A stretch of 64,000 nucleotides of DNA from Trichocoleus sp. (GTDB taxonomy: Bacteria; Cyanobacteriota; Cyanobacteriia; Elainellales; Elainellaceae): positions 248,001 through 312,000 of the forward strand of contig DATNQD010000059.1 in the NCBI GenBank assembly GCA_036702865.1, written 5' to 3'. Below, piece by piece: positions 40,903-44,451 of this stretch. The notes below the pieces were generated by a model, which was not told where the DNA came from, made no database searches, and worked only from the letters and a program-made list of their open reading frames with translations. Both the position numbers and the translations under genes were made by a program. Within the stretch, counting starts at the first letter, position 1. Each line of letters begins with the position of its first letter.

Positions 40903-41340
40903 TTATGGCTGAAGTCGGACGAGTAATTGTACTGCGTCTTCAGTCGTGCGGTGATATCCACTGAGCTTGTCTTTGACGTCGGGTGAGATTGAAAAGTCCA
41001 AGCTGGGTGGCGCAAAGCCATAGCTGCCATAAAAATCTTGCATCGTGGTAGAAGGTGAGCAGTAAACAATATGGTAGCTCTCTGCCTCTTTCAGCAAGAA
41101 TTCTAGCGTTTTGGTAGCGACTCCCTGCTTGCGAAAATTTGGCACAACATAGATGCCGCCAAGTTCTGCGGTACGTTCATCAAGCTTAATCAAACGCCCT
41201 AACCCGGCTCGCTCTCCATCTAGCTCCGCAATTGCAATCACCTCACCATCAAAGTTGGCACGCTTAAAGCCAGCCTCATCATAGCGATCGTTAATCCAAG
41301 CCATTTCTTGACGGAGTGCCCTACGAACCGTAAGTACCAT
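40903..41340 (-). CDS. GNAT-family N-acetyltransferase
   Basis: This 145-residue protein has the acetyl-CoA binding core near GGIYVVPNFRKQGVATKTLEF (shown in part). The preceding strand AIAELDGERAGLGRLIKLD and a C-terminal GSYGFAPP motif are also GNAT-like. The start at 41340 is fixed by the strong site AAAGGAGGT just upstream. The longer frame to 41451 is in the neighbouring gene's tail and is not needed. The acceptor is unknown. It lies downstream of the nucleotidyltransferase fusion with 19 bp between them and may be cotranscribed. Confidence 0.92.
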   Translation of the reverse strand: MVLTVRRALRQEMAWINDRYDEAGFKRANFDGEVIAIAELDGERAGLGRLIKLDERTAELGGIYVVPNFRKQGVATKTLEFLLKEAESYHIVYCSPSTTMQDFYGSYGFAPPSLDFSISPDVKDKLSGYHRTTEDAVQLLVRLQP

Positions 41341-41359
41341 TGCAACCTCCTTTCGATCT

Positions 41360-43921
41360 TTATTCAACAAGCTCCATGGCGTTTTCTTCAATCCCATGGG
41401 TTTGATCGACAAAACCCTGCACATAGGCGCGGTATTCGCGTAACGTTTCATCTACCCAACCCCGATCGTGGCTATCAGCGTAGAGGTGAACCAGCGGCTC
41501 CCCGGCGTCGGGTAAAACAAGCACCCAACTATCATAGTGGGGACTAAATATTTTTACACCGTCCGTCAGGTCGAGGCTGTCTGGTGAATGTGTCTCTACT
41601 AAGTGGCGCATCAGGGTTCCTTTCACTGCCCAGGGACAGCGCACCGTGAGCGATCGGTGAGAAACGCGAGGCAGCTCTGCCCGAATTTGCCCCAAGGTGC
41701 GGGGTGTCCCGTAAGCGTCTTGCTGCTGCAGCGAGAGTAATTCAATCAGCTTGGCAATGCAGAACATGGCATCGAATCCGGGGTGCAATTGCGGGAAGAT
41801 AAACCCAGTGTCACCGCTGCCGCCTAGCACTACATTTGGGTTTGTATGGCAGGCTTCCATCAACGCAGTTGGGCTGGCTTTGGTGCGAATGACCCGACCA
41901 TCATGACGACGCGCAATCTGCTCGACCACACTAGAAGCATTCACCGGAACCACAACCGTTCCTCTGGGGTGATCCATCAGCATCATGTGAACCATCAGCG
42001 CTGTCAGCATTTCGCCCCGGATCGTATTGCCTGACTCATCCACCAAAATTAACTGTTCGCCATTGGCAGCAACCTGAACCCCCAAATTTGCCTTTAATGC
42101 TTCAACTACATGCCCCAACTGATTGAGCAGCACTTCTCGATCGGCGCTAGAAGGAACCATGTGGCTTAAGCTGGCATTGAGCACAACGGCATCACAGCCA
42201 AACTTGCCCAGAATTTGCGGCAGCACTGCTCCAGAAACAGCGTAAACATAGTCAATCACAACCTTAGCGTTGCCATTCCGCATGGCAATTGCATTCAACA
42301 GTCGCTCGAAGGTGGCACTGTAGATTTCATTCGCTTGAGGAGCATGTACCACATTCCCGATTTCCTGAATCTGTGCTCGCCGGAAATCTTCTTTGAAATA
42401 AGCGCCTTCAATTTTCTTTTCCCTTGCCTTGGATAAATTAATGCCCTTACTGTCAAAAAACTCAATCAAGATATGATCCGATCGATCGGGATGCACCCGG
42501 ACATGGATACCCGCTGCAACTGCAAAGGTTGGGGTAACCGTTCGAGAAACGGGAATTGCCGTTGCTTCTAAATTTTGGACATTAATGCCAACAGACATCA
42601 GCCCGGCAATCAGCGATCGAGAGACCATCCGCGCAATCGCTCGTTGATCGCGAGAGACAACCACCTGTGCCCCAGGCTTCAGCGTTGAGCCAAAAGCTGC
42701 CCCTAACCGAACGGCAAATTCAGGCGTGATATCGACATTGGCTAACCCGGAAACGCCTCGCTGACCAAATAAGTTTCGATGCGCCGCATGTCCCCAAATC
42801 AGGTTCATGTTAAGGGTTGCCCCTGGCTCAATTCGCTTGCTGGGCCAGATTCGCACATTTGGACTCACCAAAGATTCTTCGCCAACGGTAGACAAAGACC
42901 CAACGATCGCCCCTTCCAGCACATTTGCCCGCCGATCAAACCGGGTGCCTCTCGCAGCCACGCAAGCCCGAAGATGTGCCTCTTCTCCAACAATCACACC
43001 ATTCCAGATAATTGGGCGCTTGAGATTGGCATCTGTGCCAATGCTGACGTTGTCGCCAATTACCGTTCCAGATGAGATTTGAGCACGGGCAGCAATGCGG
43101 CAGTTATGTCCGATTAAGGCAGGCGGGTCAATATGGGCAGAGGGGTCGATATAGGTGTTTTGCCCCACCCAGATTCCGGGCGATCGCTCGAGGTAGTCAA
43201 ACTCCAGCTTTACCTTTTGATAAAGCGCCGCATATTGTGCTTCCCGATAGGCATCAAGATGTCCGACATCGCACCAGTAACCATCTGCCACAAAACCATA
43301 CATTGGCTCACCTTTTTCGAGCAGCAGCGGGAACAGATCTTTCGAGAAATCGGTTTCCTGGTTTAGTGGCAAATAATCCAACACTTCGGGTTCTAGAATG
43401 TAAGTCCCTGTGTTGACAGTATCCGAAAAGATTTCGCTGCTGGAAGGCTTTTCTAAAAAGCGCACAATCCGGCGCTGTTCATCGGTAATGACGACGCCAA
43501 ATTCGATCGGGTTGGGAACGCTGGCAAGCACAAGGGTTGCTTTTGATCGTCGTTCCTTGTGAAAGCGAATTGCGGCGGAAAGGTCAAAATCGGTAATGCA
43601 ATCACCGCTAATAACAACAAAGGTTTCGTCTAGCAGTTCGGCGACATTGCGAACGCAGCCTGCCGTTCCCAGCGGTTGGTCTTCTTCAACGGCATAGGTC
43701 ATTTGCACGCCAAACTCGCTGCCGTCCTGAAAGTAATCCCGCATCACATCAGGCAGATAGTGCAGTGTAGCGATCACCTCTGTAATACGATGCCGCCGCA
43801 ACAGGTTAATGATGTGTTGGGCGATCGGGCGATTCAGGATGGGAACCATCGGCTTGGGCAGGTCACAGGTCAAGGGTCGAAGTCTTGTCCCTGAGCCACC
43901 CGCCATCAGCACTGCTCTCAT
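41360..43921 (-). CDS. Sugar-1-phosphate nucleotidyltransferase fused to a degenerate phosphomannomutase-like domain
   Basis: This 853-residue protein has an N-terminal nucleotidyltransferase (residues 1-230; MAGGSGTRLRPLT, PKPMVPILNRP, GDCITDFD). A left-handed hexapeptide beta-helix (about 250-375) and a phosphohexomutase-like region (about 380-840) follow. The first part looks active and is usually named mannose-1-phosphate guanylyltransferase. The mutase part lacks all four expected loops: no TASHNP serine (about 470-485), AANGEQ at 618-623 in place of DGDADR, GGSGDTGF at 700-707 in place of a GExSGH, and no RxSGTEP near 803-815. It probably is not a working mutase. GGAGG precedes the ATG. 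Confidence 0.9.
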   Translation of the reverse strand: MRAVLMAGGSGTRLRPLTCDLPKPMVPILNRPIAQHIINLLRRHRITEVIATLHYLPDVMRDYFQDGSEFGVQMTYAVEEDQPLGTAGCVRNVAELLDETFVVISGDCITDFDLSAAIRFHKERRSKATLVLASVPNPIEFGVVITDEQRRIVRFLEKPSSSEIFSDTVNTGTYILEPEVLDYLPLNQETDFSKDLFPLLLEKGEPMYGFVADGYWCDVGHLDAYREAQYAALYQKVKLEFDYLERSPGIWVGQNTYIDPSAHIDPPALIGHNCRIAARAQISSGTVIGDNVSIGTDANLKRPIIWNGVIVGEEAHLRACVAARGTRFDRRANVLEGAIVGSLSTVGEESLVSPNVRIWPSKRIEPGATLNMNLIWGHAAHRNLFGQRGVSGLANVDITPEFAVRLGAAFGSTLKPGAQVVVSRDQRAIARMVSRSLIAGLMSVGINVQNLEATAIPVSRTVTPTFAVAAGIHVRVHPDRSDHILIEFFDSKGINLSKAREKKIEGAYFKEDFRRAQIQEIGNVVHAPQANEIYSATFERLLNAIAMRNGNAKVVIDYVYAVSGAVLPQILGKFGCDAVVLNASLSHMVPSSADREVLLNQLGHVVEALKANLGVQVAANGEQLILVDESGNTIRGEMLTALMVHMMLMDHPRGTVVVPVNASSVVEQIARRHDGRVIRTKASPTALMEACHTNPNVVLGGSGDTGFIFPQLHPGFDAMFCIAKLIELLSLQQQDAYGTPRTLGQIRAELPRVSHRSLTVRCPWAVKGTLMRHLVETHSPDSLDLTDGVKIFSPHYDSWVLVLPDAGEPLVHLYADSHDRGWVDETLREYRAYVQGFVDQTHGIEENAMELVE

Positions 43922-44451
43922 ATTTCCTCCTTAACAGTTCACCATCTTCCGGCTCTTGAGGGTGCTATCTCTGTTGAGTCCTGCTGCCCCAGTTCTATTG
44001 TCTCCCCAGTCTCCTATAGAGCAGAGTAACGGGGTTATCCGTCTGGAGGGATAACTCTATCAGCGAAATAATTCGTTACAACTGGGAAAACATAGAGAGC
44101 AAAACGAACTTCGCTGTTCTAAGCCAAATTAGCTAGATGAGAGCGGTCGTTACAAATTGCAATAACTCATGATCTTGGGCTGTTGCCCGCTGAGAAATCA
44201 GCAGATAAAAAACAGACCAACAGCGTTCCACCCCAGATAGACCCATTGAAATTTGTAGCAGGAGGAATGGATGCCGCCTCAGAGTTGCAGAAAAGCTTCA
44301 GGTTCAACCGACTGACTGGGGATTATCGAAAATCGGCGAATAGACGAGAATAGAGACAGACTATAACTTTGAGACTGAATAACGAGCCTCACTCTTTAAA
44401 GTTTAGTGTTAATTGTTGGAAGCCGTCGATTTGAAAAAGGAGTTGTTGACG
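43922..44451. other. Intergenic region between divergent genes
   Basis: This 530-bp gap contains the GGAGGA ribosome site of the minus-strand fusion gene (43922-43930 region) and, on the plus side, AAAAAGGAG before 44452. I see no supported ORF, tRNA or riboswitch in the middle. Promoters for both genes probably lie here. Confidence 0.55.

Follow-up and report, generated by a model that had tools for sequence, protein, structure and literature searches.

Regulatory subunits act in both ADP-glucose and GDP-mannose pyrophosphorylases, and GMPPA is the non-catalytic allosteric partner subunit that controls GDP-mannose pyrophosphorylase. Within the phosphohexomutase fold, PGM5 (6y8x, matched in our structure comparison) is not known to have mutase activity. 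The conserved domain cd05805, whose title we take to be 'MPG1_transferase', presumably corresponds to the mutase-like part at the C-terminus of such nucleotidyltransferase fusions as the one described here. Database entries with this architecture carry the annotation sugar phosphate nucleotidyltransferase or mannose-1-phosphate guanyltransferase. Among the matches listed in a search of the open-licence literature by title and abstract opening, no paper dealt with this fusion or its dead mutase half. In PMC9426568, cd05805 is named among the subfamilies left out of that study and is placed beside subfamilies that have other sugar specificities and are 'known to catalyze distinct reactions'. CugP, the cyanobacterial UDP-glucose pyrophosphorylase, is sll1558 according to PMC7401256, and sll1558 was dropped as a candidate fusion.

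The window, i.e. the whole stretch of 64,000 nucleotides of Trichocoleus sp. that was analysed, holds on its minus strand a gene (41360..43921) for an 853-residue fusion of a sugar-1-phosphate nucleotidyltransferase, a beta-helix and a pseudo-phosphohexomutase, as judged from the open reading frame, Pfam, an AlphaFold model and structural alignment. All features of the gene given below are on the same strand. A ribosome-binding-like GGAGG (43926..43930) stands 4 bases before the ATG. The nucleotidyltransferase domain (residues 1-235, 43217..43921) matches Pfam NTP_transferase over residues 3-231 of the fusion with 205.8 bits, and its motifs AGGSGTRLRPLT..PKP, SGDCITD, EKP..SDTVNTGTY and YWCDVG are intact; the whole consensus GGxGTRLxPLTxxxPKP, GD, EKP and YWxDxG is present, as the first-pass annotation had stated in calling this part intact. 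By its motifs the N-terminal part would be a working sugar-1-phosphate nucleotidyltransferase that makes an NDP-sugar. A left-handed beta-helix linker domain follows (approximately residues 246-372, 42806..43186), recognised by Pfam LbH_EIF2B at 250-349 and by short strands in the model.

The C-terminal half is a complete phosphohexomutase fold (residues 383-841, 41399..42775). Pfam PGM_PMM domains I (383-514, 96.2 bits), II (534-631, 41.7 bits) and III (636-735, 26.5 bits) are all over cut-off; no match to domain IV is listed, yet the structural alignment extends to residue 838, and together these place the half in the alpha-D-phosphohexomutase superfamily. The AlphaFold model, built on a 64-row alignment, has a mean pLDDT of 90.1 and a pTM of 0.67, and the mutual packing of the two halves is not fixed by it. 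Residues 383-838 of the model superpose on Thermococcus kodakarensis phosphoglucomutase 9du5 (Z 46.4, rmsd 2.4, 441 residues), and the model likewise matches Pyrococcus horikoshii PMM/PGM 1wqa (Z 45.8, rmsd 2.7, 445 residues). Residues 1-375 match the GDP-mannose pyrophosphorylases 7whs (Z 39.8, rmsd 2.7, 352 residues) and 7d72 (Z 39.7, rmsd 2.4, 346 residues). The latter is human GMPPA/GMPPB, which shares the nucleotidyltransferase and beta-helix with the fusion over these residues. In GMPPA/GMPPB, however, the partner is a nucleotidyltransferase paralogue on a second chain, whereas here it is a dead phosphohexomutase on the same chain. PGM5 resembles the C-terminal half in being a pseudo-phosphoglucomutase, but it is unfused and eukaryotic, and CugP, unlike the fusion, has no mutase-like half. 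We note that a listed GNAT reading frame (40903-41451 of the window, minus strand) and the end of the fusion overlap, which a start codon further in, near 41340, would abolish.

The first-pass annotation had described four altered mutase loops, and a residue-by-residue alignment with 1wqa bears this out. The former phosphoserine loop reads VRVHPDRSD (residues 474-482, 42476..42502); TASHNPP of 1wqa lies opposite RVHPDRS, and Ser101 opposite His477. The metal loop DGDADR has become AANGEQ (618-623, 42053..42070). The sugar loop GGEENGG is aligned with GGSGDTG from residue 700, the altered loop being GGSGDTGF (700-707, 41801..41824), and the phosphate loop RASGTEP is aligned with LPDAGEP (803-809) in the stretch LPDAGEPLVHL (803-813, 41483..41515). 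No gap adjoins any of the four loops, i.e. the positions are unshifted. Catalytic residues at shifted positions, which were to count against a dead domain, were looked for both by alignment and by structural superposition; none was found. The window protein has neither T/S-A-S-H-N-P nor DGDxDR, the Glu of GGE or RxSGTEP, and it keeps 0/8 of the core catalytic residues (Ser, His, the three Asp and the Arg of the metal loop, the sugar-loop Glu and the phosphate-loop Arg). Other mutase genes with normal loops are present in the same genome, three of which served as a yardstick (L001, L002 and L004, the last poorly aligned at the phosphate loop). The description 'non-catalytic' is strongly supported, as far as phosphohexomutase activity is concerned, by alignment, model and relatives, and on these grounds we regard it as very probable that the C-terminal half is not a mutase.

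The alteration of the loops is not a matter of chance, because it recurs in the residue counts of 247 distinct fusions (251 minus 4 duplicates) aligned with 4 active mutases. Each active mutase has 8/8 core residues, and no fusion has more than 3/8. The phosphate-loop Arg is absent from all 247 (two rows have gaps there), as are the three metal-loop Asp taken together; the sugar-loop Glu occurs in 6 and the His after the Ser position in 1. Ser itself is retained in 87/247, as RxSPxDP and similar rather than TASHNP and mostly outside the class of the window, the first metal-loop Asp in 102, the metal-loop Arg in 92, and Ser together with the first Asp in 63. By sample, Ser is kept in 6/69 cyanobacterial fusions (including L036, L038 and L039, the three that belong to the window's class), in 30/75 from a contig scan, 32/49 from Actinomycetota, 19/49 from Bacillota and 0/4 from plasmids. 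In other words, the catalytic set is gone in every fusion, though the loss is uneven from residue to residue. Since Ser and the first Asp are kept in these numbers, some fused relatives could, to judge from their sequences, retain a partial and different chemistry. Some letters of the new form are widely kept, the Asp of LPD in 225/247 and a Glu in the metal loop in 217/247. In the window's class, which is taken as that of oxygenic cyanobacteria, the new letters are largely constant: HVRxHPDR, SANGEQ, GGSGxxGFIFPQ and LPDAxEPxVH.

An alignment with other cyanobacterial fusions had been proposed as a check, and the loops proved degenerate there too: 0 of 69 fusions of the same phylum have normal loops (one of these is a half gene, and one has no phosphate loop in frame). 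These two copies are broken, possibly through sequencing error, and were kept in the counts. L079 (genome G141), with its frame split in the beta-helix, entered with its second half only, and L080 (G137) stays in frame up to residue 724 only, residues 787-843 being found in a different frame. Four fusions of the Bacillota sample (L280-L283, 743-761 aa) lack any residue at the sugar-loop columns, a further erosion of the dead domain.

The contig scan was made with an alignment of 13 fusions and with patterns in the nucleotidyltransferase half only. Of its best 80 loci 77 were usable, and none of these has the normal loop set; L088, where the frame breaks early, and the incomplete L112 and L164 were left out. 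The best loci come from at least about eleven phyla by record titles or NCBI ranks: Campylobacterota, Aquificota, Deferribacterota, Myxococcota, Armatimonadota, Chloroflexota, Actinomycetota, Bacillota, Eremiobacterota/Vulcanimicrobiota, Pseudomonadota (one bin) and Cyanobacteria. Metagenome bins make up most of these records, and the labels of some could be mistaken. A plasmid search, of which four sequences were examined, gave full-length fusions on plasmids of Streptomyces, Nonomuraea and Sulfuricurvum. Matches at E<=1e-100, not all of full length, occur in 53/119 genomes of an Actinomycetota sample (the phylum of G146) and in 65/119 of a Bacillota sample (that of G148, by title). In the phylum of the window 79/146 genomes have a match at E<=1e-60 and 73/146 hold the fusion by row count (one split, one broken), while five genomes of family f19 and G021 show an unfused relative only. 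With about eleven phyla, and with Actinomycetota and Bacillota samples rich in the fusion, the earlier term 'cyanobacterial fusions' is too narrow; the altered mutase half is no local decay and is far older and wider than the cyanobacteria. Some genomes (G149, G318 and G356) have two full-length fusions. In G016 a GlmM match lies inside an 838-aa open frame (L205) that may be another fusion or just a long frame.

A quick maximum-likelihood tree puts 56 sampled fused domains together in a single clade (SH-aLRT 100) against 5 active mutases, which alone make up the root and two of which are on long branches. The groups of fused domains broadly match phyla. The catalytic loss was probably a single, early event. 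Median dN/dS of close pairs, which are not independent, is 0.041 for the nucleotidyltransferase (75 pairs), 0.072 for the beta-helix (89) and 0.041 for the mutase-like domain (47). Constraint on the dead domain equals that on the catalytic one, and purifying selection on it is strong. The dead domain therefore does something, the nature of which dN/dS does not tell.

The distribution of conservation along the domain was compared between 30 GlmM and 28 fusions (27 and the window), largely from the same genomes though not one to one. Overall the fused domain is as highly conserved as GlmM (median identity 0.684 vs 0.636). Ranked by window conservation, the four GlmM loops reach the 98/90/97/97th percentile, with 0/20000 random draws as high, whereas those of the fusion reach the 41/79/72/90th (p 0.09). 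The former loops, in contrast to GlmM, are no longer the most conserved part, which is how a domain kept for something besides mutase catalysis should look. No significant excess of conservation at the old active site over the rest of the domain was seen in this control (p 0.09), nor in another test (p 0.20) in which the cyanobacterial-phylum set also took in 11 contig-scan loci (L089-L099). This argues against a ligand site built mainly of the loops and makes a purely structural role possible.

We consider it likely that the protein combines a sugar-1-phosphate nucleotidyltransferase with a C-terminal half that is an ancient pseudoenzyme, kept for control or assembly of the nucleotidyltransferase. 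That a dead partner is kept in many bacteria, often beside glycogen-type genes, suggests such reuse. The most economical role that can be given to the dead half is control or assembly of the pyrophosphorylase, which would be the cause of its retention; the first-pass suggestion of a 'regulatory or oligomerisation module' is plausible. A sugar phosphate might, for example, bind the reshaped cleft of the dead mutase, and the signal might then pass through the beta-helix to the nucleotidyltransferase, as in the regulatory subunits of the ADP-glucose and GDP-mannose pyrophosphorylases. We would give control by ligand sensing about an even chance. The dead mutase could also be a structural module only, which sets oligomerisation or serves to dock another protein, without binding any small ligand; this is a genuine possibility, though we lean against it. 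It agrees with the lack of significant extra conservation at the loops and with the location of many of the 45 most conserved positions elsewhere (R424, D425, R460, K502, E505, R515, C762, K767, G768, M771 and R772 among them), and GlmM solved in complex with CdaA (7olh, 7ojs) indicates that the fold can be a docking surface. On the other hand, H473, E622, F709, P804 and D805, in or beside the loops, are also among these 45, and the wide retention of the LPD Asp and the metal-loop Glu suggests a local site that has been kept.

Would a mutase with an unusual site still work, so that the protein is a bifunctional mutase/pyrophosphorylase? The complete fold and the Ser kept in 87 relatives speak for it, and PMC9426568 lists cd05805 with the subfamilies 'known to catalyze distinct reactions'. 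But the phosphate-loop Arg and the full set of Asp are found in no fusion, His beside the Ser position is found in one, and the window protein has His for Ser. A working mutase is contradicted by the loop residues of the window and of the 247 fusions, and we regard this reading as highly improbable. A new catalytic activity on phosphosugars, to which the letters recurring at the old loops (HxRxxPD, GE[RQ], LPDxxEP) might point, appears very improbable, as the loop letters differ between lineages and L280-L283 have none at the sugar-loop columns. Neutral decay of a once useful partner accords with the lost catalytic loops and with the broken copies in two genomes, but a dN/dS as low as in the catalytic domain contradicts it, as does the presence of the fusion in half of the genomes sampled from the phylum and commonly elsewhere; we find it hardly credible. 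The first-pass observation was thus right, and the kind of role that it proposed is probably right for a phenomenon older and wider than the cyanobacteria.

The substrate was examined through profiles and gene context. The best NCBIfam match of the fusion, NF052502 (mannose-1-phosphate guanylyltransferase), reaches 247.2 bits against a cut-off of 440, and TIGR02091 (GlgC ADP-glucose pyrophosphorylase) 119.6 against 424.9. 8x7s (tlr0611; UTP--glucose-1-phosphate uridylyltransferase) aligns at 35-37% identity, and the closest unfused paralogue of the fusion in the genome is the CugP-like L007 (39% over residues 1-342). The genome also has a ManC-like nucleotidyltransferase (L209, 274.4 bits to TIGR01479, cut-off 372.95), gmd over cut-off and a stand-alone mannose-isomerase-type cupin (L168). 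With L209 and gmd present, a requirement for GDP-mannose cannot decide the substrate, and with L209 and the cupin present, the fusion as the sole GDP-mannose enzyme of the genome is unsupported. A mannose substrate finds no support in the context elsewhere either, where the neighbours are alpha-glucan genes or a phosphoglucomutase; in several lineages glucose 1-phosphate is more likely than mannose 1-phosphate.

Downstream of the fusion in the window, on the same strand, are a GNAT acetyltransferase and an SSB gene. SSB also follows the fusion in other cyanobacteria (10 contig-scan loci; 9/29 cyanobacterial loci) and says little about function. An alpha-glucan gene within about 1.5 kb was seen at 1/29 cyanobacterial loci (L030, GlgP). 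As the window has no alpha-glucan neighbours and its genome has its own GlgC (L011), an alpha-glucan reading is unsupported in the window itself. In the 77 contig-scan loci, with up to 5 kb per side and raw counts, 26 have at least one of GH57, a GalT-like gene, glycogen phosphorylase, GT5 and GH77 beside the fusion: 19/24 of L089-L113 (Campylobacterota, Aquificota, Deferribacterota and Myxococcota-type) and 7/53 of the rest (L121, L123, L127, L129, L133, L143, L149). These neighbours include GH57, GlgP, GalT and MalQ, and at the Campylobacterota-type loci GH57 is usually directly downstream on the same strand. GlgC at E<=1e-60 was found in 0/20 tested alpha-glucan-context genomes (of 26), mostly metagenome bins that may be incomplete, against 7/14 control genomes.

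The Bacillota sample (30 loci, raw counts) has a GlgA-like glycosyltransferase neighbour at 23, GH57 at 10 and GalT at 1, and GlgC over cut-off in 5/26 genomes. In five of these transferases the GT4-type Pfam models are best and the starch synthase domain is weaker, so 'glycogen synthase' is not established. The Actinomycetota context (30 loci, raw counts) is not alpha-glucan: a CDP-alcohol phosphatidyltransferase occurs at 26 loci and a phosphoglucomutase beside the fusion at 19, with TASHN in 18/19.

In the alpha-glucan-context lineages, the fusion may act as an NDP-glucose pyrophosphorylase whose pseudo-mutase half serves for control or assembly. The fuller proposal, which we put forward tentatively and think doubtful, is that a widespread pseudo-phosphoglucomutase senses a glucose phosphate (glucose 1,6-bisphosphate, glucose 6-phosphate or glucose 1-phosphate, for example) and controls the fused NDP-glucose pyrophosphorylase, which in GlgC-less bacteria would be the missing alpha-glucan (glycogen) pyrophosphorylase. 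If the nucleotidyltransferase serves glucose, it is a testable candidate for the alpha-glucan entry step in GlgC-less bacteria, and evolution has broadly turned the fold of a metabolic enzyme to new use in control or assembly. Should the mutase half be dead in all members, any mutase reaction assigned on the basis of this domain is wrong. PMC9426568 counts this domain among mutase subfamilies with distinct reactions, whereas the loops described here argue that its fused members are pseudo-mutases.

Two fusions have an extra C-terminal DUF5752 match (L115:3877-6747 and L144:3978-6827). A recurrent gene order, a PgsA-type gene, the fusion, a phosphoglucomutase and then DUF881 genes, was seen, where the flank permitted, at L122, L125, L128 and the Actinomycetota loci L212-L241.
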